From contig NZ_JACVXB010000004.1 in assembly GCF_014596945.1 (NCBI RefSeq), forward strand, positions 248,001 through 312,000: a stretch of 64,000 nt of DNA, read 5' to 3'. The DNA is from Aestuariibaculum sediminum. Lineage in GTDB: Bacteria > Bacteroidota > Bacteroidia > Flavobacteriales > Flavobacteriaceae. How positions within the stretch are numbered: position 1 is the first letter of the stretch; each line of letters opens with the position of its first letter. This document shows, one piece after another, positions 30,483 to 58,074 of the stretch. The notes below the pieces were generated by a model. That model did no database searches. It was not told the origin of the DNA and saw nothing but the letters and a program-made list of their open reading frames with translations. The position numbers and the translations under genes were made by a program.

Positions 30483-30513
30483 TTGTTACTAAGTAATTAT
30501 ACTTATATATTTG
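30483..30513 (+). promoter_or_regulatory. narK promoter with AAGTA-N4-TACTT box
   Basis: TTG at 30483-30485, 20-bp spacer, then -7 TATATTTG at 30506-30513. The spacer holds the inverted repeat AAGTAATTATACTT (30491-30504) ending one base before the -7 element. The same box abuts the -7 of the nirB and nasA promoters, suggesting one regulator that blocks or positions RNA polymerase. Confidence 0.65.
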
Positions 30514-30518
30514 TTACT

Positions 30519-30548
30519 AAATACGTATTTATTACGTAGTTTTAATTA
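30519..30548 (+). promoter_or_regulatory. TACGTA elements in the narK leader
   Basis: A perfect 12-bp palindrome AAATACGTATTT (30519-30530) is followed by ATTACGTAGTTTTAATTA (30531-30548). The latter is identical at 17 of 18 positions to 51401-51418 in front of nirB. AAATACGTATTT also begins at 57721 before nasA (first ten bases followed by TT). A second regulator site or an alternative promoter overlapping TAGTTTTA is possible. Confidence 0.5.
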
Positions 30549-30568
30549 AGTATTAATTGACATTAATT

Positions 30569-32059
30569 ATGGAAGTAACAAAAGGAGCAAATAAAATTTT
30601 ATTCATCAATACATTAGCTTTTACATTCTGTTTCGCCGCATGGTTATTAAATGGAATATTAGTAACTTTTTTAGCCGATAATCAGGTTTTTAACTGGAAT
30701 GCAGTTCAAATTGGTTGGTTAATTGGTATTCCCGTTTTAACAGGCGCTATTTTTAGACTACCAGCGGGTATTTTAACTGATAAATTCGGCGGAAAACCTG
30801 TTTTTGCAGGCCTGTTGCTGCTGAGCGCTATTCCAATGTATTTATTATCGTATGCTAATGGATTTTGGTCGTTTGCATTTTGTAGTTTAGGGTTTGGAAT
30901 AACAGGAGCAAGCTTTGCGGTAGGTATTGCTTTTTCATCAATATGGTTTCCAAAAGAAAGACAAGGTGTTGCACTGGGTATTTTTGGAGCAGGTAATGCG
31001 GGAGCTGCTATTACAACTTTCATTGGACCCAAATTATTAAATTATTTAACAGAAGGAAAAACGCAGTTAGAAGGTTGGAGAACTATGCCTAAAATGTATG
31101 CTGCATTTTTGGTCATCATGGCGATAATTTTCTTTTTAACCACTACCAATAAAAAACCAATATCGAGTACAAAAAGTTTGAATGGTATGTTACAACCACT
31201 AAAAAGTGTTCGTGTATGGCGCTTTGGGCTTTATTACTTTCTTGTATTTGGTTGTTTTGTTGCTTTTGCAGGTTGGTTAGTTCCTTATTATACTAATGTA
31301 TATGCTTTGGATTTAGCAACAGCTGGTCTTTTGGCATCATGTTTTAGTTTACCATCTGGAGTTATCCGTGCTTTTGGAGGCTGGTTGTCGGATAAATTTG
31401 GAGCAAGGAAAGTTATGTATGGGGTGTTAGGTACATCCATGCTGCTAAGTGCCGTATTAGTGATACCTAAAATGGATATATATGCTGCTGGTCGCGGTAT
31501 TATGGCCAAAAACTCAGGAGTAGTTGAAGAAGTCTCATCAGAATTTATACAAGTTAATAATTATACATATCAATTAAAACAACATGATGATAAATTAGCA
31601 TATATCGACGATACATTCCAATTCTTTCCTGTAAAAGAAAGCTGGCAGGAAGTTCGAGTTAAGAAAGGTGATGTGGTAAATAAAAAGGAATTATTAGCTG
31701 AAGGAAGAACTCATATATATTTTCAGGCTAATGTTTGGGTTTTTGCAATAATTGCAATAATAATTGGCTCTGTATGGGGTATTGGAAAAGCAGCTGTATA
31801 TAAGCATATACCAGACTATTTCCCTGATGAAGTAGGCGTAGTAGGAGGTATGGTAGGTGTGCTTGGAGGACTAGGCGGTTTCTTTTGTCCTATATTATTT
31901 GGGTATTTGTTGGAAGGAACAGGGCTTTGGTCGAGTTGCTGGATATTAATGTTTTTATTGTCAGCAATTTGTTTAATCTGGATGCATAGAGTTGTACAAA
32001 AAATGACAAATAAAGCAACACCATTATTGGTTAATAAATTTGAGAATAATGTAAGTTAA
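30569..32059 (+). CDS. narK: Nitrate/nitrite transporter (MFS, NarK family) with periplasmic insert
   Basis: 496 residues from ATG 30569; an in-frame TTG at 30557 is an alternative. Twelve MFS helices. Nitrate signature 1 (GIFGAGNAGAAITTFIGP) and signature 2 (GVVGGMVGVLGGLGGFFCP) are present, as are the substrate Arg residues in helices 2 and 8 (IFRLPAG, VIRAFGG). Between helices 9 and 10 an extra ~85-residue hydrophilic segment (nt about 31475-31726) faces the periplasm. It has alternating strands ending in VKKGDVVNKKELLAEG, similar to a biotinyl/lipoyl-type hairpin. It should import nitrate for the reductases at 51-61 kb. Confidence 0.94.
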   Translation: MEVTKGANKILFINTLAFTFCFAAWLLNGILVTFLADNQVFNWNAVQIGWLIGIPVLTGAIFRLPAGILTDKFGGKPVFAGLLLLSAIPMYLLSYANGFWSFAFCSLGFGITGASFAVGIAFSSIWFPKERQGVALGIFGAGNAGAAITTFIGPKLLNYLTEGKTQLEGWRTMPKMYAAFLVIMAIIFFLTTTNKKPISSTKSLNGMLQPLKSVRVWRFGLYYFLVFGCFVAFAGWLVPYYTNVYALDLATAGLLASCFSLPSGVIRAFGGWLSDKFGARKVMYGVLGTSMLLSAVLVIPKMDIYAAGRGIMAKNSGVVEEVSSEFIQVNNYTYQLKQHDDKLAYIDDTFQFFPVKESWQEVRVKKGDVVNKKELLAEGRTHIYFQANVWVFAIIAIIIGSVWGIGKAAVYKHIPDYFPDEVGVVGGMVGVLGGLGGFFCPILFGYLLEGTGLWSSCWILMFLLSAICLIWMHRVVQKMTNKATPLLVNKFENNVS

Positions 32060-32086
32060 AGTTATTTGTGGTGTTGTATTAAGAAG

Positions 32087-32124
32087 AAGTCATCTTGATG
32101 GAGTTAGTCCAAGATGGCTTTTTC
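32087..32124 (+). terminator. Rho-independent terminator of narK
   Basis: Stem AAGTCATCTTGA / TCCAAGATGGCTT (one G-T pair) with a short loop, followed by TTTCTATTTT, about 28 bp after the narK stop. Confidence 0.8.
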
Positions 32125-32136
32125 TATTTTATAGCT

Positions 32137-32280
32137 ATGCGCAAATTATCTGTTAAAAAGGATAAACGAACTGATTACGCATTAAGGATTTTTTATAAAC
32201 TTGCCTAGGGATATGATAGTTTTCATTTATAGTTAGGAGAAATAGCTGTAGTAATAAATAATCAAATATATCAAATCCTA
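32137..32280 (+). pseudogene. Remnant of an Rrf2-family (NsrR/IscR-type) regulator
   Basis: Reading from ATG 32137 gives MRKLSVKKDKRTDYALRIFY and KLA, then stop TAG at 32206. The same frame continues GYDSFHL, a second stop at 32230, then LGEIAVVINNQIYQIL. The pieces line up in order with the N-terminal winged helix of Rrf2 proteins (TDYALRaLlYLA ... IaEIAerygIsrnhLmkil). The rest of the domain and the Fe-S cysteines are missing; the frame runs into the 3' end of the oppositely oriented CLC gene. I call it a decayed gene with two nonsense codons and a lost 3' end. Confidence 0.65.
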
Positions 32281-33591
32281 TTTAGGTTTATTTTGCTCAC
32301 GACGAGCTTCTATATCAGAAAGATGTAAACCTTTTTCTCGCAAAAAATAATTGTTTTTTGGGCTTCCGATAATTTGTGAAGAATAAACACCAGAATGCCC
32401 TGAAAATAAATAAGCGGTGCCACATGCTAATGCAATAAATACACCTGGCTCTATTCCGAAAAGTTCAATCCCCATTATGGTGCATGCAATGGGGGTGTTA
32501 GTTGCTCCCGCGAATACGGCAACAAACCCCATACCTGCTAGTAAACCCATTGGTAATGGTATAAACCAGATTAATGCATTACCTAGTGTAGCACCAATAA
32601 AAAAAAGAGGGGTAACTTCACCTCCTTTAAATCCGGCTCCCAAAGTGAACGAGGTAAATAAAACTTTTAATAAAAAATCATATGAATTCAAATCAACATT
32701 AAAAGCATCAACTATTGTTGGGATTCCCAGACCTATAAATTTTGTCGTGCCCATCAAATAAACAGCAACCGCTAATATAGTACCTCCGATGACAGGTCGT
32801 AATGGGGGGTAATTAATATATTTTTTAAATAAATCACTCCAGAAATGAGTAGATTTTGAAAACAACATAGCAACAAGCCCGAAAATGATACCAGCGAGCA
32901 AAGCCCAAAGCATGTTAATTGGAGTCATTTCAGCCACTAAATCTATATGGTAATGAGTATGCGGAACACCCCATATTCTGCAAAAGTAATCGGCAATAAC
33001 TGCAGCCATAAAACTCGGAATAATGGCATCTAAACGCAATCTTCCTAATATTAATACTTCTAGAGCAAAAATACCACCAGCTAGTGGCGTACCAAATACA
33101 GAGGCAAATCCTGCGCTAATACCTGCAATTAGAATGATTTTTCTATCACGCTTAGTGAGTTTTAAAATTTTCGTGAACTGATCGGCAATTGCGCCTCCAA
33201 TTTGAACTGCTGTACCCTCACGACCTGCTGAGCCCCCAAATAAATGGGTTACAATAGTGCCAAATAAAACAAGAGGAGCCATTTTAAAGGGAATAATTTT
33301 TTTGGGCGTGTGAAACTCTTCTAACAATAAATTATTGCCTTTTACAACACTACTTCCAAAGAAATGATAGGAAAGGCCTATTATAAATCCCCCAATAGGC
33401 AACAACCAAATAATCCAAAGATGCGATTCTCGATAGTTTGTCGCCCATTCTAAACTAGTTAGAAAAAAAGCAGAAACACTTCCCGCGAGAGTGCCTAAAA
33501 CCAAACAAATAAAGAGCCATTTTAACAGATATAATAGCGTAGGTATTTGTTCAATAGAAAATATAAGCTGCTTTATTTTTTTTACCGTCAT
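32278..33591 (-). CDS. CLC-F-type fluoride/H+ antiporter (EriC-F-like)
   Basis: 437 residues, CLC fold, no CBS domains. The ion-pathway motifs are those of the fluoride branch rather than of chloride CLCs: GNN at 85-87 in place of GSGIP, GREGT at 123-127 in place of GREGP, and GGEVTP at 323-328. Fluoride CLCs expel F- and confer fluoride resistance. No fluoride riboswitch was recognised upstream. A -7 element is at 33608-33615. The assignment over ordinary chloride CLC rests on these three motifs. Confidence 0.85.
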   Translation of the reverse strand: MTVKKIKQLIFSIEQIPTLLYLLKWLFICLVLGTLAGSVSAFFLTSLEWATNYRESHLWIIWLLPIGGFIIGLSYHFFGSSVVKGNNLLLEEFHTPKKIIPFKMAPLVLFGTIVTHLFGGSAGREGTAVQIGGAIADQFTKILKLTKRDRKIILIAGISAGFASVFGTPLAGGIFALEVLILGRLRLDAIIPSFMAAVIADYFCRIWGVPHTHYHIDLVAEMTPINMLWALLAGIIFGLVAMLFSKSTHFWSDLFKKYINYPPLRPVIGGTILAVAVYLMGTTKFIGLGIPTIVDAFNVDLNSYDFLLKVLFTSFTLGAGFKGGEVTPLFFIGATLGNALIWFIPLPMGLLAGMGFVAVFAGATNTPIACTIMGIELFGIEPGVFIALACGTAYLFSGHSGVYSSQIIGSPKNNYFLREKGLHLSDIEARREQNKPK

Positions 33592-33607
33592 AAAATGGAA
33601 TAAGACA

Positions 33608-33615
33608 CAAATATA
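33608..33615 (-). promoter_or_regulatory. Probable -7 element of the CLC-F gene
   Basis: The minus strand reads TATATTTG (TAnnTTTG), 16 bp before the ATG at 33591, giving a very short leader that leaves no room for a riboswitch. Confidence 0.5.
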
Positions 33616-33752
33616 AATGAATTATTGAACTAAATATCTGAATTTGTTAATGTCTTATATGGTTTTTTAAAGCATATTTAATAAAATTATTTGATAGAAT
33701 TTTAATTCTTCGATAGTATATTAGAGCAAGAAACTAAAAGATTAAGTATAAA

Positions 33753-34511
33753 ATGGAAAGAAAAATTGCTTTAGTAACCGGTGGTAGTCGAGGGTTAGGA
33801 AGAGATATAGCTATTAATCTGGCAAAAAAAGGGTTGGATGTTATTATTACATATAATTCTAATAACAAAGCAGCAGAGGAAGTCATTCTTGAAATTATAA
33901 AATTAGGGCAAAAATGTAAAGCCTTTCAGTTAGATACTACCTGTGTTAGTACCTTTGATGCTTTTTTTGAAAATGTAACATCATATCTAAAGAATAACTA
34001 CGGAAATCCAAATTTCGATTATTTAATCAATAATGCGGGAACTGGGCTTTATGTGCCGTTCATGGAGACCACCGAAAAACAGTTTGATGAGATGTGTAAC
34101 ATTCATTTAAAAGGGGTCTATTTTTTAACCCAACGTGCCGTGCCATTTATGAATAATGAAGGAGGAATAATAAATATATCTTCTGGACTGGCTCGATTTA
34201 CTCTACCTAAGTCATCTGCTTATGCGGCTATGAAAGGTGGTATTGATGTTTTTACCCGGTATGTGGCGAAAGAACTGGCTCATAAAAAAATTAGAGCGAA
34301 TTCTGTTGCTCCTGGGGCTATAGCAACCGATTTTGGCGGGGGCGAAAACAAAACAAACGAACAAAAAAGGCAACTCATTTCTGCGGCAACAGCTTTAGGA
34401 CGTGTTGGTGAGCCTGAAGATATAGGAGCAATTGTAGCTTTTTTATGTACCGATGATGCTAAGTGGATTAACGGACAACGTATTGAGGCCTCTGGAGGTG
34501 TGTTTTTGTAA
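33753..34511 (+). CDS. SDR family NAD(P)-dependent oxidoreductase
   Basis: 252 residues, classical short-chain dehydrogenase. The cofactor motif TGGSRGLG is at about 9-16, NNAG near 92-95, and catalytic Ser followed by Y-x3-K (SAYAAMK). The C-terminal end RIEASGGVFL is FabG-like. The substrate is unknown; it may be a 3-oxoacyl reductase or a sugar/steroid-type dehydrogenase. The cyclophilin reading frame begins 9 bp after its stop. Confidence 0.94.
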   Translation: MERKIALVTGGSRGLGRDIAINLAKKGLDVIITYNSNNKAAEEVILEIIKLGQKCKAFQLDTTCVSTFDAFFENVTSYLKNNYGNPNFDYLINNAGTGLYVPFMETTEKQFDEMCNIHLKGVYFLTQRAVPFMNNEGGIINISSGLARFTLPKSSAYAAMKGGIDVFTRYVAKELAHKKIRANSVAPGAIATDFGGGENKTNEQKRQLISAATALGRVGEPEDIGAIVAFLCTDDAKWINGQRIEASGGVFL

Positions 34512-34550
34512 ATAATTTAAATGATGAGATTGAGCTAAATTTTAAGTCTA

Positions 34551-35111
34551 TTGGTTTTTATATGTGTTTCATGTAAAAAGGAAACTTATGCTGAAATAAA
34601 AACACCTAAAGGCAATATAATTGTTAAATTGTATACCGAAAGAGCCCCTATCACGTGTGCTAATTTTTTAAAATTAATTGAAAATAAAATGTTACAAAAC
34701 GGGCAATTCTATCGAGTAGTTCGGATGGATAACCAACCAGATAACGACATTAAAATTGAAGTTATTCAAGGAGGAATAGATAATGATGATTTAGATTATC
34801 CTCCAATTATGCATGAAAGTACTAATGATACAGGTGTTTTGCATAAAGACGGTACCATTTCGATGGCTCGGTTAGAACCAGGCTCTGCTACAACCGAATT
34901 TTTTATTTGTATAGGAGATCAACCGGAGTTAGATTTTGGAGGCATGCGAAACCCCGACGGACAAGGCTTTGCAGCTTTTGGTAAAGTAATAAAGGGGATG
35001 GAAATTGTAAGGGAAATTCAAAAAATGAAGCAACAAAATCAAATGTTAATTAATCCTGTTCCGTTTTCTATTAAAGCAGAGGTTAAAAAGGTTTTTGCGA
35101 AATTTAATTAG
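34551..35111 (+). CDS. Cyclophilin-type peptidyl-prolyl isomerase lipoprotein with broken signal peptide
   Basis: 186 residues from TTG 34551. The cyclophilin domain has TPKGNIIVKLYTERAPITCANF, YRVVRM, GTISMARLEPGSATTEFFI and FAAFGKVIKGMEIV. The N-terminus VFICVSC is a lipobox cut short. In the same frame ATG 34521 (9 bp after the SDR stop) reads MMRLS, then TAA at 34536-34538, then ILSLLVFICVSC: a normal lipoprotein signal interrupted by one stop. A Lys codon mutated to TAA, a sequencing error, or initiation at ATT 34539 or TTG 34551 are all possible. Confidence 0.85.
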   Translation: MVFICVSCKKETYAEIKTPKGNIIVKLYTERAPITCANFLKLIENKMLQNGQFYRVVRMDNQPDNDIKIEVIQGGIDNDDLDYPPIMHESTNDTGVLHKDGTISMARLEPGSATTEFFICIGDQPELDFGGMRNPDGQGFAAFGKVIKGMEIVREIQKMKQQNQMLINPVPFSIKAEVKKVFAKFN

Positions 35112-36142: not shown

Positions 36143-36169
36143 TGATTTAAATGCTAAAAAGGTAATATA

Positions 36170-37522: not shown

Positions 37523-37542
37523 AACGTAATATTTATAGCTGG

Positions 37543-37550
37543 CAAAGTTA
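37543..37550 (-). promoter_or_regulatory. Probable -7 element of the helicase gene
   Basis: The minus strand reads TAACTTTG (TAnnTTTG) in the 43-bp gap between the aldose epimerase and the helicase, 20 bp before the ATG. Confidence 0.5.
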
Positions 37551-37565
37551 CGCTTATTATTCTAG

Positions 37566-38456: not shown

Positions 38457-38487
38457 CTCTTAATGTATTTTTTCTATACTACAAAAC

Positions 38488-38519: not shown

Positions 38520-38536
38520 TCGCATAAATTTTTCCA

Positions 38537-43589: not shown

Positions 43590-43595
43590 TTAATT

Positions 43596-44647: not shown

Positions 44648-45103
44648 ATGCCTGAATATAAATTAAAAATTAATGGTAAGTCTCATACCGTTAACGTTGA
44701 TGAAGACACACCGCTCTTGTGGGTGTTGCGTGATGAATTAAACCTTCTTGGTACTAAATTTGGGTGTGGTATTGGACAATGTGGTGCTTGTACCGTGCAT
44801 TTCGAAGGTGCTGCAGTAAGAAGTTGCTTGCTGCAGGTTTCAACGATTAAAGATTCAAAAATTACTACGATTGAAGGCTTATCGGAAGATGGAGATCATC
44901 CATTGCAGAAAGCCTGGTTAGAGCATGATGTTCCACAATGCGGATATTGCCAAAGTGGACAAATTATGAATGCCGCTGCACTTTTAAAAGAAAAACCAAA
45001 ACCCACTGACGCAGATATTGATAGTGCTATGAATGGAAATATTTGTCGTTGCGGCACATATATTCGTATAAAACAAGCGATTAAAACAGCGTCTAATCAA
45101 TAA
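44648..45103 (+). CDS. [2Fe-2S] subunit of a xanthine-oxidase-family Mo enzyme (IorA-like)
   Basis: 151 residues. Plant-type [2Fe-2S] ligands C40, C45, C48 and C60 in the N-terminal half; second cluster ligands C98, C101, C133 and C135 in the C-terminal helical domain. It passes electrons from the molybdenum site of the large subunit encoded 11 bp downstream. The two-subunit form without an FAD subunit fits the isoquinoline/aldehyde oxidoreductase branch. It has no export signal and may be carried out with the Tat partner. Confidence 0.95.
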
Positions 45104-45114
45104 ATTCAAAAATC

Positions 45115-47313
45115 ATGACTAAAATAAAAACACAATATAATCGTCGTTCATTTTTGAAGGTTTCGGCAGCAGCAGGCGGAGGTATGCTCATAGGCTTTAG
45201 TTGGTTAACAGGATGTGTTACCAGTAATAAAAAAGACGATGTTATTGCCATCCCAAATGAATGGTTCGAAATTAATGGATACATCAAAATTGGGGATACT
45301 GGTTTGGTAACAATTTATTCACCAAACCCTGAGATTGGACAAAACGTAAAAACTTCAATGCCCATGATTGTGGCAGAGGAGTTAGATGTTGATTGGAATC
45401 ATGTAATCGTAGAGCAAGGGGCTTTAAATGAAGATGCCTTCAAAAACCCCCAATTTGCAGGTGGTAGTTTGTCCATAAAGCGAGGTTGGCATCCTTTAAG
45501 AATGGCAGGTGCAACAGGTAGGCGTATGCTTATGGAAGCAGCGGCTAAAGAATGGAATGTTGATGTTGAAGGCTTAACCGTTACGAAAGGGATTATTAAA
45601 GAGATAGATGGCGAAAGAAGTATTAGTTACGGAGAAATTGCAAGCAAAGCGGTTGGTATAGAAATTCCAGAAGAAGTGGAATTGAAGGATGTTAAAAATT
45701 TTCAATTAATTGGTACAAGTCAGAAAAATGTAGAAGGTAAAAATATTGTAACCGGCAAACCGTTGTTTGGTATCGATTTTAAAAGGGAAGGGATGAAATT
45801 AGCTATGATAGAGCATCCTCCTGCCTTTGGAATGAAGGTTAAAGCATTTAATGAAGATGAAATAAAAGCTATGCCAGGAATTTATGATGCTTTTATTGTA
45901 GATACAGCAATACCAGGACCAGGGTGGTCTGACGAAAAAGGATTTTTACAGTTGGTTGCCATTGTGGGAGATTCAACTTGGAAACTGATGAAAGCGAAAA
46001 AAGCACTTAAAACCAATTGGGAGGTCGTTGGTGAATTGGAAAATTCTGAAATGCATTCAAAAAGAATGGAGGAAGCTCTAGCTTCAAGTGAATTAAGAGA
46101 AAGTAGAAAGGACGGCGACCCAGAAAGTGCTTTCAAAAAGGCTTCAAAAGTTATTGAACGAACATATAGTTCTCCATTTTTACCCCATAATACGATGGAA
46201 CCGATGAATTTCTTTGCCCATGTTACCGATACATCAGCGGAGTTAGTAGGCCCTACCCAAACGCCGAAGGCTTTAGAAGATTCAGTGTCTAAATTACTCA
46301 ATTTACCCATTGAAGCAATTACCGTAGATATGACGCGAATTGGAGGGGGTTTTGGAAGACGGTTGTACGTTCATTTTGGAGTAGAAGCAGCTGCCATATC
46401 TAAAAAAATAGGTGCTCCTGTAAAACTTATTTACACGCGCGAAGACGATATGACTCAAGGAACATATCGTCCAGCTTATTTAGCAACATACAAAGCTGGA
46501 TTAGATGAGAATAATAGCCTAATAGCGTTTTCAATTAAAGGCACAGGATTACCAGAAAACCCTGTTTTCGAAAACCGTTTTCCTGCAGGAACAGTCGATA
46601 ATTATCTGGCTGAAAAAATAAGTACTAAAACAAATATCACAACAGGAGCATGGCGTGCACCGAGATCTCATTTTACAGCAGCTGCCGAACAATCGTTTTT
46701 AGATGAAGTCGCCGAATTGGCAGGTAAAGACCCTATTGAATTTAGATTAGAATTATTTGACAAAGCCGAAAATAATCCAGTTGGAGAAAATAACGATTAC
46801 GATCCTAAGCGTTATGCCGGCGTGCTTAAACTGGTAAAGGAGAAGTGCAATTGGGGCGTGGAGACTCCTGGAATATACAGAGGTGTAGCTGCCTATTATT
46901 GTCATTCCAGTTATGTGGCTGAGGTTATAGATATCGCTATGGAGAGTAATAAACCTAAGGTGAAAAAAGTATGGTGTGCTGTAGATTGTGGAATTGTAAT
47001 TAATCGGGATGCTGCCAAAAATATGGTTGAAGGCGGGGTGGTTGATGGAATTGGGCATGCAATGTATAGCCAGTTAACATTTAATGATGGTGCTCCAGAA
47101 CAAAATAATTTTAACACCTATCGATTAATGCGACATTCACAGGCGCCAGAGGCAATTGAGGTATTTTTTGTTGAGAATGATATCGATCCAACGGGATTAG
47201 GAGAGCCTGGTTTGCCACCTGCCATTGGCGCCTTGGCAAACGCATTGTATAAGGCAACAGGAGAACGTTTGTATCATCAGCCGTTTGTTTCTTATAAATC
47301 GGTAATCGGTTAA
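45115..47313 (+). CDS. Molybdopterin-binding subunit of a xanthine-oxidase-family enzyme (IorB-like)
   Basis: 732 residues. The N-terminus has a Tat signal (RRSFLK, then a hydrophobic stretch) and a lipobox-like LTGC near residue 32, suggesting a periplasmic, perhaps lipid-anchored enzyme. Moco-binding loops include GGGFGRR and GAWRAPRSHF; the base-catalyst Glu is in GLGEPGLPP near the C-terminus. Members hydroxylate N-heterocycles or oxidise aldehydes. The true substrate is unknown. It is followed after 10 bp by xdhC. Confidence 0.94.
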   Translation: MTKIKTQYNRRSFLKVSAAAGGGMLIGFSWLTGCVTSNKKDDVIAIPNEWFEINGYIKIGDTGLVTIYSPNPEIGQNVKTSMPMIVAEELDVDWNHVIVEQGALNEDAFKNPQFAGGSLSIKRGWHPLRMAGATGRRMLMEAAAKEWNVDVEGLTVTKGIIKEIDGERSISYGEIASKAVGIEIPEEVELKDVKNFQLIGTSQKNVEGKNIVTGKPLFGIDFKREGMKLAMIEHPPAFGMKVKAFNEDEIKAMPGIYDAFIVDTAIPGPGWSDEKGFLQLVAIVGDSTWKLMKAKKALKTNWEVVGELENSEMHSKRMEEALASSELRESRKDGDPESAFKKASKVIERTYSSPFLPHNTMEPMNFFAHVTDTSAELVGPTQTPKALEDSVSKLLNLPIEAITVDMTRIGGGFGRRLYVHFGVEAAAISKKIGAPVKLIYTREDDMTQGTYRPAYLATYKAGLDENNSLIAFSIKGTGLPENPVFENRFPAGTVDNYLAEKISTKTNITTGAWRAPRSHFTAAAEQSFLDEVAELAGKDPIEFRLELFDKAENNPVGENNDYDPKRYAGVLKLVKEKCNWGVETPGIYRGVAAYYCHSSYVAEVIDIAMESNKPKVKKVWCAVDCGIVINRDAAKNMVEGGVVDGIGHAMYSQLTFNDGAPEQNNFNTYRLMRHSQAPEAIEVFFVENDIDPTGLGEPGLPPAIGALANALYKATGERLYHQPFVSYKSVIG

Positions 47314-47323
47314 TCGTTATCCT

Positions 47324-48358
47324 ATGACTCACGAATTAAAAACACTTTTAGAAACTGCAATAAATTGGGAAACGGAGGGTTTAATTTCTGTCTTGGCCAC
47401 GGTTGTAGACTTAGATGGTTCGTCTTATAGGCGACCAGGTGTAAGAATGTTATTGAATAACAAGGGACAGTGGATTGGTGCGGTTAGCGGAGGCTGTGTA
47501 GAAAAAGAAGTGTATCGGCAAGCAAAAAGTGTGTTTCAAACTGGAGCGGCTAAAATGATGACTTACGATGGAAGGTATCGTTTAGGTTGCGAAGGTGTGT
47601 TATATATTTTATTAGAGCCAGTTTCATTATCTGAAGCATTTAAATCGGCATTTTTTTATTGCATAAAAGAAAGAATCATATTTTCCATTTCTTCATATTA
47701 TAAGAAACAAGAAGGTGTATGGGATGGTTTGGGGTCGGTTTTTAAATTCGAAGGAAAAACATTTTCTATTCAAGATACTAAAGAACAGGGTTTTGTGCAA
47801 CGTCCTAAAGAAGGACTTGAATTTAAACAAATACTACAACCATGTTTCAAGTTGGTAATAATAGGAACAGAGCATGATGCGGTTAAACTATCTGAATACG
47901 CATCCCTCACAGGGTGGGAGGTTACTATAGTCTCTAAAGGGACAGAGGCAAAATCGGCTGAGTTTTTCCCAAAAGCAAAAGTATTTAAAGCCTTAGCTCC
48001 AGAACATATTCAAAGTCTATCTATAGATAATCAAACGGCTATTGTTCTAATGACTCATAATTTTGCCATGGATTTAAGGTATTTGGTTGCTCTTAACGGC
48101 GAAAAACCTAATTATATAGGACTGCTTGGGTCTACAAGACGCCGAGACGATTTGCTATCTCAGTTTATTGAATACTGTCCAGATGTGTCTGATGAATTTT
48201 TAGATATTATTTATGGTCCGGCAGGCGTAGATATTGGTTCGGAAACACCCGAAGAAATAGCTATTTCTATAGTGTCTGAAATTCTTGCGGTAACACGAGA
48301 CAGGGAAACTTATTCATTACGGAAAAAGTCAGGTAAAATTCATGCCAGATTAAAGTAA
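47324..48358 (+). CDS. xdhC: XdhC-family Mo cofactor maturation factor
   Basis: 344 residues. The N-terminal XdhC/CoxI domain has SYRRPGVRMLLNNKGQWIGAVSGGCVE and RLGCEGVLYILLEP; the C-terminal Rossmann domain has GLLGSTRRRD and YGPAGVDIGSETPEEIA. XdhC binds Mo cofactor, helps its sulfuration and inserts it into xanthine-oxidase-type enzymes, here most likely the product of the gene just upstream. Confidence 0.94.
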   Translation: MTHELKTLLETAINWETEGLISVLATVVDLDGSSYRRPGVRMLLNNKGQWIGAVSGGCVEKEVYRQAKSVFQTGAAKMMTYDGRYRLGCEGVLYILLEPVSLSEAFKSAFFYCIKERIIFSISSYYKKQEGVWDGLGSVFKFEGKTFSIQDTKEQGFVQRPKEGLEFKQILQPCFKLVIIGTEHDAVKLSEYASLTGWEVTIVSKGTEAKSAEFFPKAKVFKALAPEHIQSLSIDNQTAIVLMTHNFAMDLRYLVALNGEKPNYIGLLGSTRRRDDLLSQFIEYCPDVSDEFLDIIYGPAGVDIGSETPEEIAISIVSEILAVTRDRETYSLRKKSGKIHARLK

Positions 48359-48364
48359 ATCATA

Positions 48365-48979
48365 ATGAAAGTTAAAACAAAAACAGCTATTGTTGTTTTA
48401 GCGGCAGGTGAAGCTTCACGCATGGGAAAACCTAAACAATTGTTGCCTTGGGGAGAGACTACTTTACTCGAGCATACTATTAAAACCGCTTTAGAAGTTA
48501 ATACAGATGAAATTTTGGTGGTTTTGGGTGCGCATTACAATGAAATTAAATCGCTGATTGATAAGTATCCAATACAAATAGTGTTTAATCCTGATTGGAA
48601 ATCTGGATTGGGAACATCGATTTCTAAGGCTATTTATGAGATTCAAAATGGCCGGCAGGAAATACATGCCGTATTAATTATGTTGGCCGATCAGCCATTT
48701 ATTTCTTCTAATGATTTGAATTTAATGATTAAACATTTCAGAAAAAGTGAAAATCAAATAATAGCAACAATCTATGAGGGAGGTGTGAAAGGTGTTCCCG
48801 TATTGTTTGACGCGACTTATTTTGATGACTTACTAGCTTTGAATGACGATTATGGAGCAAAAGAGATTATAAAACGTTATAAGGCCTTCGTGGATTTTTA
48901 TAATAATAATTCTAATATAGCAGATTTAGATACTCCCGATGAGTATCAATCGGCATATCAAAATACATTTAATATTTAA
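48365..48979 (+). CDS. MocA-like molybdenum cofactor nucleotidyltransferase
   Basis: 204 residues, GT-A-type nucleotidyltransferase. LAAGEASRMGKPKQLLPWG is the nucleotide-binding signature, followed by MLADQPF, which carries the metal-binding Asp. MocA converts Mo-molybdopterin to the cytosine dinucleotide form (MCD) used by xanthine-oxidase-family enzymes. Position between xdhC and a Mo oxidoreductase supports this rather than MobA. It is 6 bp after xdhC and 1 bp before the YdeP gene. Confidence 0.92.
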   Translation: MKVKTKTAIVVLAAGEASRMGKPKQLLPWGETTLLEHTIKTALEVNTDEILVVLGAHYNEIKSLIDKYPIQIVFNPDWKSGLGTSISKAIYEIQNGRQEIHAVLIMLADQPFISSNDLNLMIKHFRKSENQIIATIYEGGVKGVPVLFDATYFDDLLALNDDYGAKEIIKRYKAFVDFYNNNSNIADLDTPDEYQSAYQNTFNI

Positions 48980-48980
48980 G

Positions 48981-51275: not shown

Positions 51276-51387
51276 GAATCTTCATTCTTTTATATTTTCC
51301 ATCATTATATTTTAATTTATACGTATAAATACGTGTTTTATTTTATGAATTTATGAATTTTTCGTTTAATACTAAATTTTAGATTTT

Positions 51388-51418
51388 AAAATTAAGTATA
51401 ATTACGTAGTTTTGATTA
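51388..51418 (+). promoter_or_regulatory. nirB promoter with AAGTA-N4-TACGT box
   Basis: The half-palindrome AAAATTAAGTAT (51388-51399) also occurs at nasA. The box AAGTATAATTACGT (51394-51407) differs in one base from AAGTA-N4-TACTT, and its last T is the first base of the -7 TAGTTTTG (51407-51414), exactly as at nasA. ATTACGTAGTTTTGATTA (51401-51418) repeats the narK element 30531-30548. No TTG -33 is well placed, so an activator is likely. Another TACGTA palindrome is at 51321-51326, and AAATACGTAG at 51432-51441. Confidence 0.65.
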
Positions 51419-51443
51419 TGTTTGTAATGTAAAATACGTAGTT

Positions 51444-53954
51444 ATGAAAAAAATAATTGTTATTGGTAACGGGATGGTCGGGTACAAATTTTGTGAAAAA
51501 TTTGTAGCTCAAGCACAAAGTAGAAATTATAAAATAACAGTTTTTGGAGAAGAACCAAGACCTGCTTACGACAGAGTTCATTTAAGTGAATATTTTGAAA
51601 ATCAAGATGCTAAAGCTTTAGAAATGGCACCTAGGTCTTGGTATGAAGAGCATGGAATTGAATTAATTACAGGGGAACGCGTTGCTGACATCCATCGAAC
51701 AGCTAAAACCATAACTACAGCTAAAGAACGTGAATTTCAATATGATTACTTAGTCTTAGCTACGGGTTCTTCACCTTTTGTGCCGCCTATAAAAGGTGTG
51801 GAGAAAAATGGTGTTTTTGTATATCGAACGATTGAAGATTTGGAAGGCATGCTTGATTATGCAGCCGACTTAAAAATTAAAAATCCAAATGCTAAAGCTG
51901 CTGTTTTGGGTGGTGGTTTACTTGGTTTGGAGGCAGGTAAGGCCGTGTTAGATATGGGGTTGGAGCCTCATATTGTTGAATTTGCTCCTAAATTAATGCC
52001 GAGACAATTGGATACAAGAAGTAGTCAAGTGTTAAAATTAAAGTTAGAATCTATTGGGTTAAATATTCATTTGAGTAAAGCAACAAATCAAATATTAGGT
52101 GATGAAGCTATTACAGGAATGGAGTTTGGCGAAGATGATGTTTTAGAGGTTGATATGCTTATTATTTCGGCAGGTATACGACCTAGAGATGAGTTAGGAA
52201 AAACCTGTGATTTAAAAATGGGAGTTCGTGGAGGTATTGTGGTTGATAATAAGATGCAAACTTCAGATCCTAATATTTTTGCCATTGGAGAAGTGGCTCT
52301 ATATAATCAAATGATATATGGTTTAGTGGCTCCGGGTTATGACATGGCAGAAGTAGCTGTGCACCAAATAATAGGACAAACCGATAAAGTTATGCCTGCC
52401 GACATCGATATGTCAACTAAGTTAAAATTGATTGGTGTGGATGTGGCAAGTTTTGGAGAACCATTTATGCCTGCCAGCAAGGGGCATTCGATAATTTTCG
52501 AAAATAAAACACAGCATTTATATAAACGAATTAATGTGAGTTTAGACGGTAAATCACTGCTAGGCGGTATTCTAGTTGGTGATGCAGCCGATTATAATAT
52601 GTTGCATCAAATTTACTTGAATGGTATGAAAATCCCTGAAGATCCGTCACAGTTAATTTTGCCAGCTAGCGAAGGAGGTTCGACTTTTGGCAGTGTTATG
52701 GATTTGCCTGATACGGCTCAGGTTTGTTCATGCGAAAGTGTTAGTAAAGGTGATATTTGTTGTTCTATTACTGAAAATGGAAGTAATAATTTAGGAGATG
52801 TAGTAACCGAAACAAAGGCCACAACTGGCTGTGGAGGTTGTAAGCCTATGGTGGTCGATTTAGTAAACGAAACTCTAAAATCTTTAGGTAAAGAAGTTAA
52901 AGAAGTTATTTGTGAGCACTTTAGTTTTAACCGTCAGGAATTATACGATTTAGTAAAAGTAAATCAGGTTAAAGATTATGATGAAGCTCTGAATTTATTT
53001 GGAGACGGTGATGGTTGTGAGGTGTGTAAGCCCGCTTTAGCTTCAATATTCGCGACCATTACAATGGAAACTCCTAACAAGCAATTTGCAATTCAGGATA
53101 CTAATGATCGCTTTTTGGCTAATATTCAACGTAACGGAACCTATTCTGTGGTGCCGCGAGTAGCAGGTGGCGAAATTACACCAGATAAATTAATAGTACT
53201 CGGAGAAGTGGCTAAGAAATACGATTTATATACAAAAATAACAGGTGGTCAACGTATCGATTTGTTCGGTGCGCAAATTCATCAATTGCCTTTAATTTGG
53301 AAAGAATTAATAGATGCTGGGTTTGAAAGTGGCCATGCGTATGGAAAATCATTACGAACAGTAAAAAGTTGTGTGGGCTCTACTTGGTGTCGCTATGGTA
53401 TGCATGAAAGCGTAACGTTCGCTATAGACATAGAAAATAGATACCGAGGGCTGCGGTCACCACATAAGCTTAAAGGAGGTGTGTCGGGATGTATTCGAGA
53501 ATGTGCAGAAGCTCGTGGCAAGGACTTTGGTTTAATTGCTGTTGATGGCGGTTGGAACTTATATGTATGTGGAAATGGAGGAGCAACACCTAAGCACGCA
53601 ATATTGTTTGCTGAACAATTGGATGATGAAACTGCTATTAAATATTTAGACCGTTTCCTGATGTTCTATATCAAAACAGCTGGTCCATTAGTACGTACCG
53701 CACCGTGGTTAGAAAAACTCGATGGAGGGATAGAGTATTTAAAGCAAGTTGTCATTGAAGATTCACTCGGTATTGCAGCGGATTTAGAAAAAGAAATGCA
53801 AGGTTTAATTAATAAGTACGAATGTGAGTGGAAACAAGCAATTGAGAATCCTAACATCGCAAAGCGCTTTAAACATTTCGTTAATTCTGATGATACAGAT
53901 GATAATTTAGTATTTGTACCTATGCGCGAACAAAAAATGCCAAAAGCTTGGTAG
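51444..53954 (+). CDS. nirB: Assimilatory NAD(P)H nitrite reductase, large subunit
   Basis: 836 residues. FAD/NAD-binding domain about 1-300 (VIGNGMVGYK, ATGSSPFVPP, VLGGGLLGLEAG). BFD-like [2Fe-2S] ligands C428, C430, C463 and C466. A second small Cys region has C490, C525 and C528. The siroheme/[4Fe-4S] domain has the ligands C643, C649, C683 and C687 (CVGSTWC, CIREC). It reduces nitrite to ammonium with six electrons in the cytoplasm. It is complete for the family and followed by nirD after 59 bp. Confidence 0.97.
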   Translation: MKKIIVIGNGMVGYKFCEKFVAQAQSRNYKITVFGEEPRPAYDRVHLSEYFENQDAKALEMAPRSWYEEHGIELITGERVADIHRTAKTITTAKEREFQYDYLVLATGSSPFVPPIKGVEKNGVFVYRTIEDLEGMLDYAADLKIKNPNAKAAVLGGGLLGLEAGKAVLDMGLEPHIVEFAPKLMPRQLDTRSSQVLKLKLESIGLNIHLSKATNQILGDEAITGMEFGEDDVLEVDMLIISAGIRPRDELGKTCDLKMGVRGGIVVDNKMQTSDPNIFAIGEVALYNQMIYGLVAPGYDMAEVAVHQIIGQTDKVMPADIDMSTKLKLIGVDVASFGEPFMPASKGHSIIFENKTQHLYKRINVSLDGKSLLGGILVGDAADYNMLHQIYLNGMKIPEDPSQLILPASEGGSTFGSVMDLPDTAQVCSCESVSKGDICCSITENGSNNLGDVVTETKATTGCGGCKPMVVDLVNETLKSLGKEVKEVICEHFSFNRQELYDLVKVNQVKDYDEALNLFGDGDGCEVCKPALASIFATITMETPNKQFAIQDTNDRFLANIQRNGTYSVVPRVAGGEITPDKLIVLGEVAKKYDLYTKITGGQRIDLFGAQIHQLPLIWKELIDAGFESGHAYGKSLRTVKSCVGSTWCRYGMHESVTFAIDIENRYRGLRSPHKLKGGVSGCIRECAEARGKDFGLIAVDGGWNLYVCGNGGATPKHAILFAEQLDDETAIKYLDRFLMFYIKTAGPLVRTAPWLEKLDGGIEYLKQVVIEDSLGIAADLEKEMQGLINKYECEWKQAIENPNIAKRFKHFVNSDDTDDNLVFVPMREQKMPKAW

Positions 53955-54013
53955 AAATATATAAATAGAAAATAACGTAAGGTCATTAAATATAGAGGTT
54001 AAAAAAAATAATT

Positions 54014-54391
54014 ATGCAAGACATACTCAATCAATATAGTTCGGTTACAGAAGCCGATGTAACAACATGGTTTAATGTAGGGTTGGTTAGCGATTTTCCA
54101 GAAAATAGTGGGGCGTGCATAAAGTATAAAACCAAACAGATAGCCGTTTATAATTTTGTTAGGAAAAAAAAATGGTATGCAGCACAAAATCTTTGTCCGC
54201 ATAAAATGGAAATGGTCTTGTCGCTTGGAATGATAGGTGATAAGGATGGAGTTGCCAAAGTAGCATGCCCGATGCATAAAAAGAATTTTTCGCTTGAAGA
54301 TGGTTCAAATTTAAATGGCGATGATTTAAAAATTGCCACCTATCCTGTTAAAATAAAAGACGGAAATGTGTATATTGGCTTTTCAGACTAA
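54014..54391 (+). CDS. nirD: Nitrite reductase small subunit, Rieske-type
   Basis: 125 residues, Rieske fold. The CPH...CPMH motif is complete (C61, H63, C85, H88), so a [2Fe-2S] cluster may be bound; many NirD proteins have lost these residues. It partners NirB. The DUF4202 gene starts 12 bp after it. Confidence 0.94.
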   Translation: MQDILNQYSSVTEADVTTWFNVGLVSDFPENSGACIKYKTKQIAVYNFVRKKKWYAAQNLCPHKMEMVLSLGMIGDKDGVAKVACPMHKKNFSLEDGSNLNGDDLKIATYPVKIKDGNVYIGFSD

Positions 54392-54403
54392 TTTAACAAA
54401 CCA

Positions 54404-54988
54404 ATGAAACCAACACGATTTGAAACTGCAATAGCATTAATTGATAAAAAAAATTCTGAAGACCCTAATGTGTATCATAGTCATGGGTTAGATTTTCCTA
54501 AAGAATTGTTGTATTCTCAGCGTATGTCTCAAAAGTTATTGCAGTTTAAACCAAACGCATCAAGAGCATTGCAAATAGCAGCTAGAGCCCAACATATTTG
54601 CCGTTGGAAAATAGGTAGAGACGAATATCCTATGGACCGTGTGGGATATTTAAAGTGGCGCGAAACCTTAAAAAAAATGCATGCTGAAATAACATCCGAA
54701 ATTTTAGAGGATGTTGGTTATGAATCTGAGTTTATCGATCGCGTGTCATTTTTAATAAATAAAAAACTCATTAAAAAGAATGAAGAAAGCCAAACCATTG
54801 AGGATGTCATTTGTTTAGTGTTTTTAGATTATTACTTTGAAGAGTTTGCAGCTAAGCACGACGATGAAAAAATAATTGATATACTTAAAAAAACATGGGT
54901 TAAAATGTCTGAAGAAGGCCATAAAGAAGCCTTGAAAATTAAATTTTCAGATAAGAGTTTAACTCTCGTAAAAAAAGCGATTTCTTAA
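54404..54988 (+). CDS. DUF4202 protein in the nitrite reductase operon
   Basis: 194 residues, soluble, mostly helical. YHSHGLDFPKELLYSQRMS, ARAQHICRW (H64), MHAEI (H93) and DVICLVFLDYYFEEF (D142) are spaced like the metal ligands of an HD-type hydrolase, though the exact HD pair is absent. DUF4202 has no established function to my knowledge. Tight spacing (12 bp after nirD, 13 bp before the kinase) ties it to nitrite reduction or nitrate sensing. Confidence 0.87.
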   Translation: MKPTRFETAIALIDKKNSEDPNVYHSHGLDFPKELLYSQRMSQKLLQFKPNASRALQIAARAQHICRWKIGRDEYPMDRVGYLKWRETLKKMHAEITSEILEDVGYESEFIDRVSFLINKKLIKKNEESQTIEDVICLVFLDYYFEEFAAKHDDEKIIDILKKTWVKMSEEGHKEALKIKFSDKSLTLVKKAIS

Positions 54989-55001
54989 ACTAATTATTAA
55001 C

Positions 55002-56819
55002 ATGACAAAAAACGGTAACTCATTAGATCAGCGTACGTTTGATAAATTAAGCCGTTTGTATATCATTGCCTTAAGTACTATTGCGGTATCGGTAATTGTT
55101 AGTCAGATTTTAATTCGAAAACATCTTAATGCTCAGTTAAGTGATTCAACTGTAATCAATGTGGCGGGTAGACAACGCATGCTTAGCCAGAAACTTACCA
55201 AGGATATAATAGCCTTATCTACAGAGCAAAAAACCAATGAACGTATTTCGCTAAAGGATGATATTAAAGCAACGTTAAACCTTTGGGAAACATCACATCA
55301 TGCTTTACAAAATGGAAACGATAGCTTAGGGTTACCTGGAAAAAATAGTACAGATATTAACGCAAAATTTGCCAAGCTTAATCCGGTTTTTAACACGATT
55401 AGTAAATCGGTAAAAACCATTATTGAGGCAGTTGAAAACGTCCCTCCATTACCAACCTCAGTTTTTGAAAATCATATTGAAAATGTTAGACAGAATGAAG
55501 GTGTTTTCTTAGCGATGATGGATAAAATTGTTAATCAGTATGACTTTGAAGCAAATCAAAAGGTAAGTTGGTTACGACGTTTAGAGACTTTATTAACAAT
55601 TCTTACCTTAGTGATTTTATTAGCTGAATTCTTATTCATATTCTGGCCAACAGCCAAATCGGTGAGAGCTACTTTAGGAGAATTATTGCTTGCTGAACAG
55701 CGCGCTAAAAAAATGGCAATTGATGCCGACGAACTTAGTCTGGCAAAAGAGAAGTCCATGAAAGAGCTCAGAGCTTTAAATCACGCAATGGATGAAACGC
55801 TTTTGTTTGCCAGAATCACTCAAAATGGCAATGTGGTGCATATTGGTAAACGCTTTTCACGATTATTTAAATTTTCAGGATTTAATATGACGACTAGTTT
55901 TGCTGAAATTATTTCGATCCAGGAAAGCGAGCAAGTTGTTATGGAAAATATAATAACCAAAAGCAAAAAAACGGGATGGCAGGGAGAAGTTAAGGCTACA
56001 ACGAAGGATTATAAGGATATTTGGTTAGAAATGGCGATTATTCCTTTTAGTTTTAGTGATGACCGTTCGGAGTTACTCATTATAGCTTCTGATATTACTT
56101 CGCGAAAAGCAGCGCAATTAGAGATTGAGCGCCTTACTAAAGAGAGTTTCGAGGAAAAAATGAATCAGCAAAAAATTATCTCCAGTAAGATTATTGAAAA
56201 CCAGGAAAAAGAGCAAAATAGAATAGCTAAAGATGTGCATGATGGAATAGGACAAATGCTTACAGGATTAAAGTATAACTTAGAAAGTATAGATATTTCA
56301 GATATCGAAAAAACAGCATTTAAAATTGAACATCTTAAGGAGTTAACCGGTAATATAATAAAAGGTGTTCGTACAGCAACGTTCAATTTAACACCCCCCG
56401 AATTATCCGACCATGGTATCGTACCAGCCATAAATAAATTAACACATGAATTGTCAAAATTAACAGGTAAACAAATTGTTCTTTTTAATAAAACTGAGTT
56501 TAATCAGCGATTAGATTCACTGGTAGAAATTAATATATACCGAATTGTACAGGAGGCTATTAACAATGCCATAAAATATGCTAATTCTACACACATTTTG
56601 GTGTCGCTATCTCACAGTGAAAATATTTTAAGTGTTGTAATAGATGATAATGGCCAAGGTTTTAATCCGAAAAAGGTAAAGAAGGTAAAAGAAGGCGATG
56701 GCGGTATGGGAATGACTTTTATGAAAGAACGTATAAAATATATAGAAGGCCGCATATTTATTCATTCCGAGAAAGATAAAGGAACACGTGTAACCTTAAA
56801 TATTCCAATAGATAAATAA
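55002..56819 (+). CDS. NarX-like sensor histidine kinase (PilJ-type sensor domain)
   Basis: 605 residues. TM1 about 19-38; periplasmic helical domain about 40-195 beginning with VINVAGRQRMLSQKL (51-65), which resembles the nitrate-binding P-box of NarX and the PilJ N-terminal domain; TM2 about 197-217; PAS-like domain about 262-370; HisKA_3 with phosphorylated H413 (KDVHDGIGQ); HATPase with NNAIKYA (521-527), DDNGQGF (548-554) and GGMGM (567-571). It should sense nitrate/nitrite outside and phosphorylate the response regulator that follows. Confidence 0.92.
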   Translation: MTKNGNSLDQRTFDKLSRLYIIALSTIAVSVIVSQILIRKHLNAQLSDSTVINVAGRQRMLSQKLTKDIIALSTEQKTNERISLKDDIKATLNLWETSHHALQNGNDSLGLPGKNSTDINAKFAKLNPVFNTISKSVKTIIEAVENVPPLPTSVFENHIENVRQNEGVFLAMMDKIVNQYDFEANQKVSWLRRLETLLTILTLVILLAEFLFIFWPTAKSVRATLGELLLAEQRAKKMAIDADELSLAKEKSMKELRALNHAMDETLLFARITQNGNVVHIGKRFSRLFKFSGFNMTTSFAEIISIQESEQVVMENIITKSKKTGWQGEVKATTKDYKDIWLEMAIIPFSFSDDRSELLIIASDITSRKAAQLEIERLTKESFEEKMNQQKIISSKIIENQEKEQNRIAKDVHDGIGQMLTGLKYNLESIDISDIEKTAFKIEHLKELTGNIIKGVRTATFNLTPPELSDHGIVPAINKLTHELSKLTGKQIVLFNKTEFNQRLDSLVEINIYRIVQEAINNAIKYANSTHILVSLSHSENILSVVIDDNGQGFNPKKVKKVKEGDGGMGMTFMKERIKYIEGRIFIHSEKDKGTRVTLNIPIDK

Positions 56820-56839
56820 GTATTTTCACGTAAATTTTA

Positions 56840-56847
56840 TACTTTTG
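56840..56847 (+). promoter_or_regulatory. Probable -7 element of the narL-like gene
   Basis: TACTTTTG, exact TAnnTTTG, 87 bp before the ATG. A degenerate AAGTATTTTCACGT (56818-56831) lies just upstream and resembles the nitrate box in its left half only. The regulator may thus be made independently of the kinase. Confidence 0.45.
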
Positions 56848-56934
56848 CTAAGTATGAAATGTTTAGATGAATTTTATTTTAGCTTTATTGAAAAAATATT
56901 TTAAACTAAATAATAGACTAAAAAAACGAGTGTT

Positions 56935-57609
56935 ATGAGTGTAATAAATGTTGTTTTGGCCGATGACCATGTTTTAGTGAGAGATGGAATAAAGGCACTT
57001 TTAGAGGATCAAAAAGGTATTCAGGTTGTGGATGAAGCATCGAACGGCGTGGAGGCAATTGATGTTATAAAAGCGCAAAAACCACATTTATTAATAGTTG
57101 ATATTCGTATGCCTGAAATGAACGGTATAGAGGTGGTTCAGAAAATAAAAAGCGAACAAATAGACGTTAAAACTTTGGTATTGTCTATGCATGATTCCGA
57201 AGAATACGTCGTTAAAGCTATTCAAGCCGGAGCAGATGGATATTTATTAAAAGGAGCGAGCAAGGAAGAGTTTTTAAAAGCTTTGACGAGTATTGCTGCT
57301 GGAGGAAAATATTTTACCGGAGATGTATCGGCTATCATAATGAATAATTTTGTTCAAGGTTCGAATGGTGTGACAATTAGTGATAGCTCTAAAATTAAGA
57401 AAAAGGTAAAAGATCCTTTTAATTTAACTAAACGTGAACGCCAGATATTAGAATTAGTCCTTCAATTAAAAAATAATAAAGATATTGCTGAAGAATTAGA
57501 AATAAGCAAACGAACTGCTGAAGTACATCGTTTTAACTTAATGAAAAAAATGGAAGTGAAAAACCTCATGGAGTTAAGTAATAAAGCTAAAGAATTTCAA
57601 TTGGTTTAG
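56935..57609 (+). CDS. NarL/NreC-family response regulator
   Basis: 224 residues. Receiver domain 1-120 with acidic pair D10-D11, phosphorylated D56 (LLIVDIRMP) and conserved Lys in YLLKGAS; LuxR-type HTH about 157-215 (LTKRERQILELVLQLKNNKDIAEEL). It is the partner of the kinase 115 bp upstream and a likely activator of nirB, nasA and narK. Confidence 0.93.
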   Translation: MSVINVVLADDHVLVRDGIKALLEDQKGIQVVDEASNGVEAIDVIKAQKPHLLIVDIRMPEMNGIEVVQKIKSEQIDVKTLVLSMHDSEEYVVKAIQAGADGYLLKGASKEEFLKALTSIAAGGKYFTGDVSAIIMNNFVQGSNGVTISDSSKIKKKVKDPFNLTKRERQILELVLQLKNNKDIAEELEISKRTAEVHRFNLMKKMEVKNLMELSNKAKEFQLV

Positions 57610-58074
57610 ACACAATTTTAAAAAGCGTATAGATTTGATTTTTATTTAGTGCTTTTATCTCATTTTTTTATCAAAATCTTAAATACCATTCTACTTTTTA
57701 ATAAATCTACATTTTTCAACAAATACGTATTTTTGTTTTTAAAATTAAGTATTTATACTTAATTTTGTTAATATAACTTATGTTTTATAAATCAGTTTGT
57801 GCAGTCTTTAGTTAAGCCTGGCATATAGCAATAAACAATCGGGAGAAGTTAATTTTTTAATAGCTACTTGTTTGTTTTTATAAATTATGAATTTAATGGT
57901 TGGTTTTTTACTGTTTTATTAATAATTCTTGATTTAGAAACAACGTGTTATTGAAAAGGTTAAATTAGTTTAACTGCCTCTAATATAGTGGATGGAATTC
58001 ATATAATTTCTGATGCACATAGGGGTAACCTTAAAAAGTTTTAATATCGAATTTCGATTAAAATGTAATGGTTT
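57610..58074. other. 465-bp control region and long leader of the nitrate reductase gene
   Basis: The first ~110 bp are AT-rich with no gene. The promoter region is at 57721-57767. From the -7 element to the ATG there are about 300 nt of untranslated leader. It contains a 6-bp stem GTTAAA-TTAG-TTTAAC near 57960-57975 and the 13-bp palindrome ATCGAATTTCGAT at 58046-58058, 17 bp before the start codon. No short ORF or known riboswitch was recognised. Such a long leader suggests post-initiation control. Confidence 0.55.
57721..57767 (+). promoter_or_regulatory. nasA promoter region with 26-bp palindrome
   Basis: AAATACGTAT at 57721 overlaps a first -7 candidate TATTTTTG (57728-57735). A perfect inverted repeat with 12-bp arms (AAAATTAAGTAT at 57741-57752, ATACTTAATTTT at 57755-57766) contains AAGTATTTATACTT (57747-57760). 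The last T of that box is the first base of a second -7, TAATTTTG (57760-57767). This is the same geometry as at nirB. Confidence 0.65.

Follow-up and report, generated by a model that had tools for sequence, protein, structure and literature searches.

Our analysis of a 64,000-nucleotide stretch of the Aestuariibaculum sediminum genome (the window) showed four copies of a palindromic box, 5′-TAMGTA-N4-TACKTA-3′, upstream of narK, nirB, nasA and a dodecin gene. Judged from its sequence conservation, this box is a genuine nitrate-regulon operator that relatives have in common. Quite probably it serves as operator for a two-component system that responds to nitrate and has its genes in the same cluster, with a response regulator (RR) of the FixJ/NarL type and a NarX-like histidine kinase, and the RR at 56935 is the most likely candidate for the protein that binds it. 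The initial annotation of this DNA had proposed a single operator for a nitrogen-oxide regulon, and both the conservation of the box and its distribution in the genome support that proposal.

The three boxes that had been listed for narK, nirB and nasA were confirmed in the window at 30491-30504, 51394-51407 and 57747-57760. The exact 14-bp pattern AAGTA-N4-TACTT is present three times against 0.13 expected from shuffled sequence. These exact matches are those of narK, nasA and a previously unlisted site at 25806, and the nirB box carries one mismatch. When a single mismatch is tolerated, the window holds 7 matches against 5.4 by chance, so that the pattern is not enriched. In the whole genome (4,043,315 bases in 21 contigs) the exact pattern occurs at 12 places, five of which fall inside 48 kb, whereas its reversed control occurs at 24. 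The 14-bp form alone is thus weak, because it is at chance level with one mismatch and rarer genome-wide than the reversed control.

We then extended the pattern by one base on each side and allowed A/C and G/T. The resulting 16-bp form, TAMGTA-N4-TACKTA, is matched by each of the four window sites (narK, nirB, nasA and 25805) and has seven sites genome-wide versus two for its reversed control. Six of the seven lie within 48 kb of contig C16, at dodecin, narK, nirB, nasA, a Crp/Fnr-family (fnr-like) gene and an nrtA-like gene. Apart from dodecin, these are five genes that take part in nitrate use or adjoin such genes. Two of the six sites are beyond the window, one between moeA and the fnr-like gene, which are divergent, and one upstream of the nrtA-like gene. 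The seventh site (C15:495778) is inside a 456-codon open frame and was taken as chance. The sequence AAATACGTATTT was also considered as a separate motif. It has two exact copies, at narK and nasA, but is at chance frequency in the window when two mismatches are allowed, and we read it as overlapping half-sites.

Conservation was analysed in the best 80 of 234 loci around NirB relatives. Genes were counted if their best tblastn piece had at least 60% identity, started at most 6 residues from the protein start and had 200 bases upstream present; the 14-bp core AMGTA-N4-TACKT was searched within 350 bp upstream. The core was found upstream of nirB in 76/78 loci, of the RR gene in 52/62 and of narK orthologues in 5/5. 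It was directly upstream of nasA in 15/55, many of the others having a NarK-like gene in between, and the interval from the RR gene to nasA contained the core in 53 of 54 loci and the 16-bp form in 52 of 54. No core was found within the same distance upstream of the control genes, namely nirD (0/69), the DUF4202 gene (0/71), the histidine kinase gene (0/68), the rubredoxin/NIR_SIR gene (0/31) and the FdhF-like gene (0/5). The initial annotation had named equal frequency at unrelated genes, or lack of conservation in the orthologous promoters, as results that would speak against a shared operator, and neither was seen in the data searched.

The arrangement of the half-sites is also specific. 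In 1.74 Mb of these loci plus the window, TAMGTA-N4-TACKTA gave 225 matches, and the other spacings from 0 to 15 gave 1 to 16 each. The half-site ranked first of 180 permuted half-sites, and the next two (96 and 95 matches) are overlapping forms of the same letters. At N4, diverging half-sites numbered 225, converging ones 30 (26 also diverging) and direct ones 102 (99 also diverging); almost all of the converging and direct matches are TACGTA sites also counted as diverging. Direct TACKTA repeats rise at spacings of 14 and 15 (35 and 52 matches in loci L001-L080), perhaps a second arrangement of half-sites.

The flavobacterial sigma-A consensus is TAnnTTTG at −12 to −5 (PMC9723704, available in part). 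The coordinates of the −7 elements (Table 1) agree with the gaps that had been described, with one base between box and element at narK and one base common to both at the two other genes, nirB and nasA. Placed on a flavobacterial sigma-A map, the 16-bp box covers roughly −26 to −11. Register counts in the relatives used limits similar to those of the upstream-box counts. An offset of 0 to the −7 element was found in 67/78 nirB promoters (with an offset of 11 in five others), 46/54 intervals from RR to nasA, 21/30 fnr promoters and 3/5 narK promoters. In the RR promoters of relatives the offset is 8-12 bp in 48/62 and 0 in three, and the box is absent from ten; the box there is upstream of its place at the other targets by about one helical turn. 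The boxes of the dodecin and nrtA-like promoters do not abut a TAnnTTTG element.

The distribution of the box was further followed in 199 Flavobacteriaceae genomes with completeness of at least 95% (thresholds: NirB, E ≤ 1e-150; RR, E ≤ 1e-60; Fnr-like protein, E ≤ 1e-50). NirB and the RR were found in the same 56 genomes. The box is present before nirB in all 56 of them (55 exact and one, in G179, with one mismatch): 43 were detected by the strict pattern, and individual inspection of the NirB genomes missed by that pattern gave eight exact boxes with a variant −7 element, four other exact boxes and that of G179. A box with an abutting −7 element was found in 50/56 NirB genomes versus 7/143 others (Fisher p = 1.9e-32, not corrected for relatedness). 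Such sites numbered 120, of which 43 are at nirB, 25 after RR, 21 at fnr, 23 elsewhere in NirB genomes and eight in non-NirB genomes; by the tally from the scan table, the reversed control gave five sites across all 199 genomes. For 20 of the 23 sites elsewhere, the first open frames were examined by eye and by Pfam on 120-residue pieces (three matches, one none). They comprised six MFS carriers of one type, two nasA-type genes, one nrtA-like gene, three BBP2 porins, two genes that are porin-like by eye (unmatched in Pfam), one thioesterase-like gene (probably chance) and five sites without a clear gene.

A class-level sample of 296 genomes contained 18 that encode NirB, four of them in the family. 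Outside the family, three genomes encode the RR at a distance of about 3 kb from nirB. Before nirB, the box is exact in G410; G367 has a site with a single mismatch, along with four TACGTA, and G482, although the stretch is 54% G+C, has a site with two mismatches, along with six TACGTA. In G392, whose regulator is 37% identical, a two-mismatch site was present and TACGTA was not found. Ten NirB genomes of other families that lack the RR (E ≤ 1e-45) had neither the box (0/10) nor TACGTA (0/10) in the 300 bp before nirB, and their best sites have 3-4 mismatches, with the exception of G329. The six RR-positive genomes counted have 2 to 6 TACGTA in the same interval. This contrast between RR-positive and RR-lacking genomes indicates that the box follows the RR rather than nirB.

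The RR contains receiver and LuxR/GerE domains (PF00072, 2.5e-30; PF00196, 6e-18) and adjoins a HisKA_3-type kinase, as in regulators of the FixJ/NarL type. Its recognition helix, RT-x-E-x-HRF, is nearly invariant among the RR orthologues and FixJ-like (RTAEVHRFNLM here, RTVEVHRANVM in FixJ of Sinorhizobium meliloti). The FixJ site of fixK is TAAGTAATTTCCCTTA, and systematic evolution of ligands by exponential enrichment gave the FixJ consensuses GTAMGTAG and GTAGTTTCCC (PMC4999443, available in part). The box shares with these sites the TAAGTA half-site, the M degeneracy and the 16-bp span with N4. As its half-site and spacing match TAAGTAATTTCCCTTA and GTAMGTAG, the earlier statement that the box was unlike known forms was not supported. 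Differences from FixJ are the symmetric right half of the box (the fixK site has CCCTTA, not TACKTA), the nitrate genes as targets, and the score of the RR below the FixJ cut-off. FixL has a haem sensor; the partner kinase here has a PilJ-type sensor and a PAS domain instead. Mixed TAAGTA/TACGTA half-sites accompany EVHR regulators, and TACGTA predominates with ETHR regulators (30 C versus 9 A in the 39 nirB half-sites that could be scored, from 20 genomes), an association confounded by descent.

Similarly, the system resembles NarXL/NarQP of Escherichia coli in its PilJ-type sensor kinase with HisKA_3, in its nitrate/nitrite gene targets, and in that NarL is the best full-length PDB match of the RR. 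However, HAMP and GAF were unmatched in our Pfam search of the kinase, and the proteins are below the NarL, NarX and NarQ cut-offs. The NarL site is a 7-2-7 site of converging heptamers, TACYYMT-NN-AKRRGTA, whereas the TAC halves of the box point outward (GTA-N4-TAC), in line with the 225 diverging versus 30 converging N4 matches. The TACTTAT of narK also fits the NarL heptamer TACYYMT. Nitrate-sensing kinases that lack HAMP and GAF and bear PAS form a Bacteroidetes class (PMC8199190, available in part), and the kinase at 55002-56819 fits this class. The Bacteroidetes narHK/narRR pair described there has the same kinase architecture, and the available part of that paper gives no binding site; the operator and target set proposed here are what sets the present system apart.

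In the scheme that we propose, nitrate or nitrite would be sensed by the NarX-like kinase at 55002, which bears PAS and lacks HAMP and which would phosphorylate the RR (56935). A dimer of the RR would then bind TAMGTA-N4-TACKTA, with extra TACGTA half-sites helping at many promoters. The targets would be nirB, nasA, narK and related carriers, the nrtA-like gene, the fnr-like regulator and, in this organism, dodecin; in most relatives the RR's own gene would be a further target. We lean towards the RR being an activator rather than a repressor. This preference is drawn from the relatives of the RR, because absence of a −33 TTG is uninformative: the TTG was seen in 3/133 box promoters versus 5/100 controls and does not discriminate between activation and repression. 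Its absence as proof of activation was rejected, as controls are also without it. More tentatively, the RR may activate from inside the spacer, through a site that shares the TA of the −7 element, and may control its own gene in most relatives from one helical turn upstream, a two-register grammar in which site preference would track the recognition helix. We regard this detailed scheme as possible but somewhat doubtful.

In addition to the uninformative −33 TTG, several observations weigh against the assignment of the box to this two-component system. The RR is below the NCBIfam cut-offs for both NarL (NF007935, 151 of 250 bits) and FixJ (NF006900, 96 of 255 bits). Its best whole-length PDB match is not FixJ, and for its DNA-binding domain EsrB ranks first and FixJ (1x3u) second. 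The RR promoter of this genome has half-sites only, and the box was not found at the RR promoters of loci L001 and L002. The eight box sites with an abutting −7 element in non-NirB genomes are from seven genomes that have neither NirB nor the RR, and G329, where the RR is absent, has a one-mismatch site at −236. The class-level contrast covers few lineages and families. Finally, RR and nirB are linked, so their association with the box is partly shared descent.

Another reading with the same protein is that the RR binds the box as a repressor, which would block RNA polymerase between −33 and −7 until nitrate, or the phosphorylation state of the RR, lifts the block. The position of the box speaks for it and against activation: it is repressors that more commonly bind between −33 and −7, and box and −7 element have their TA in common at most nirB promoters and intervals from RR to nasA. 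At the RR promoters of relatives, by contrast, the box is one turn further upstream, where polymerase contact would be easier, and FixJ and NarL act largely as activators. Repression is therefore rather unlikely in our view. The initial annotation had offered Rrf2- or Crp-family proteins as candidate binders besides the RR at 56935. The Fnr site is TTGAT-N4-ATCAA, and that of NtcA is GTA-N8-TAC. A Crp/Fnr-family protein (L093:9989-10756) binding as an Fnr-like dimer would suit the 5-N4-5 geometry, which is that of the Fnr site; its gene adjoins the nrtA-like gene and carries the box in its own promoter, and its orthologue was found only in RR-positive genomes of the family sample (41/56). Nevertheless, the half-site differs from that of Fnr, and all 15 RR-positive genomes without the orthologue retain the nirB box, so that the local protein is dispensable for the box and was rejected as its sole binder. 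The TACGTA clusters in varied arrangement also suit a LuxR-type regulator better. We thus consider an Fnr-like dimer of this protein very unlikely as the binder, and among the proposed binders the RR stands as the probable one.

The box might also be part of a promoter for an alternative sigma factor, and no operator, as its position is fixed against TAnnTTTG at nirB, nasA and fnr. Its dyad symmetry with a fixed N4, the 48/62 RR promoters with the box 8-12 bp further upstream of TAnnTTTG, and the boxes at dodecin and the nrtA-like gene that are not against such an element make this extremely improbable. Chance palindromes in A+T-rich intergenic DNA would explain why the 14-bp pattern is at chance level with one mismatch in the window and why its exact form is not enriched genome-wide. 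Conservation already refutes chance as an explanation; the clustering of the 16-bp form, the N4 spacing and the contrast between RR-positive and RR-lacking genomes also count against it, and we give it next to no probability.

Table 1. Coordinates of the boxes, half-sites, −7 elements and genes in the window.
Feature	Position	Strand	Remarks
16-bp box TAAGTATTAATACTTA upstream of dodecin gene	25805..25820	-	Nearer to dodecin than lpd
16-bp box TAAGTAATTATACTTA at narK	30490..30505	+	14-bp core ends one base before −7 element
−7 element of narK, TATATTTG	30506..30513	+	Putative promoter
Two extra TACGTA half-sites	30522..30538	+	3′ of narK −7 element
TACGTA half-site upstream of nirB box	51320..51325	+	
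16-bp box TAAGTATAATTACGTA at nirB	51393..51408	+	Extended-form match
−7 element of nirB, TAGTTTTG	51407..51414	+	TA common to box
TACGTA half-site directly before nirB start codon	51435..51440	+	
TACGTA half-site upstream of nasA box	57724..57729	+	About 20 bp upstream; similar element in many relatives
16-bp box TAAGTATTTATACTTA at nasA	57746..57761	+	Extended-form match
−7 element of nasA, TAATTTTG	57760..57767	+	TA common to box
Dodecin (flavin-binding)	25531..25767	-	Pfam PF07311
narK-type nitrate/nitrite MFS transporter	30557..32059	+	Pfam MFS_1; ATG likely at 30569
nirB, nitrite reductase large subunit	51444..53954	+	NCBIfam NF011565 and TIGR02374 above cut-off
Histidine kinase, nitrate/nitrite-sensing type	55002..56819	+	PilJ-type sensor, PAS, HisKA_3, HATPase
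Response regulator, receiver and LuxR/GerE domains	56935..57609	+	Pfam; proposed box binder
nasA-type molybdopterin nitrate reductase fused to NirB-like FAD/BFD part	58075..61596	+	Pfam domains

Dodecin is likely a member of the regulon. The box was found 80 bp before the dodecin ATG in all four congeners examined (G488, G489, G490 and G091), all of which encode the RR. In G493, which has dodecin and lacks the RR (E ≤ 1e-40), the box was not found in its 3-kb stretch. The gene behind the 25805 site had at first been taken as lpd, which was replaced by the divergent and nearer dodecin gene. As the promoter of the fnr-like gene carries the box, a regulator cascade is likely. This gene is beyond the window and adjoins the nrtA-like gene; in L093:3080-10756, molybdenum-cofactor genes (by eye) stand back to back with the Fnr-like regulator, which has an N-terminal cysteine cluster. 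The nrtA-like gene owes its label to the local gene order, which is that of a nitrate-type ABC transporter, and to the NMT1_2 match of a relative's copy; its own NCBIfam matches are weak.

The best NCBIfam match of the narK product is TIGR00886, below the cut-off. This protein has about 500 residues, of which the NarK model covers only 13-302, and about 80 extra residues seem to come after. NirB is 94-95% identical to NirB of two Aestuariibaculum species. The nasA product, a fusion of 1173 residues whose NirB-like part is FAD/BFD-[2Fe-2S], has NCBIfam matches below cut-off; downstream of it, at 61607-63040, is a protein with an NIR_SIR half domain and a C-terminal rubredoxin. A DUF4202 protein (54404-54988) is encoded between nirD and the kinase and had a match of at least 52% identity in 80/80 loci around NirB relatives; it is likely linked to nitrite reduction. 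A xanthine dehydrogenase-like cluster was recognised by eye at 44648-48979 (2Fe-2S subunit, molybdopterin subunit, XdhC-like and MobA-like proteins), beside an FdhF/YdeP oxidoreductase.

A text search of titles and abstract openings, with most subscription journals outside its reach, found no earlier description of this operator. Systems of this kind are already known; the operator, the target set and the promoter register appear to be new within the literature searched. The role of such sensors across organisms, and signalling by the GAF-less sensors of Bacteroidetes, are listed as open questions in PMC8199190 (available in part). With an operator that all 56 NirB genomes of the family sample have in common, one can test directly which genes respond, which protein binds and in which mode it acts. 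Such an operator is also a well-defined example in which to study the action of two-component regulators at the promoters of Bacteroidota, with their different −7 element.

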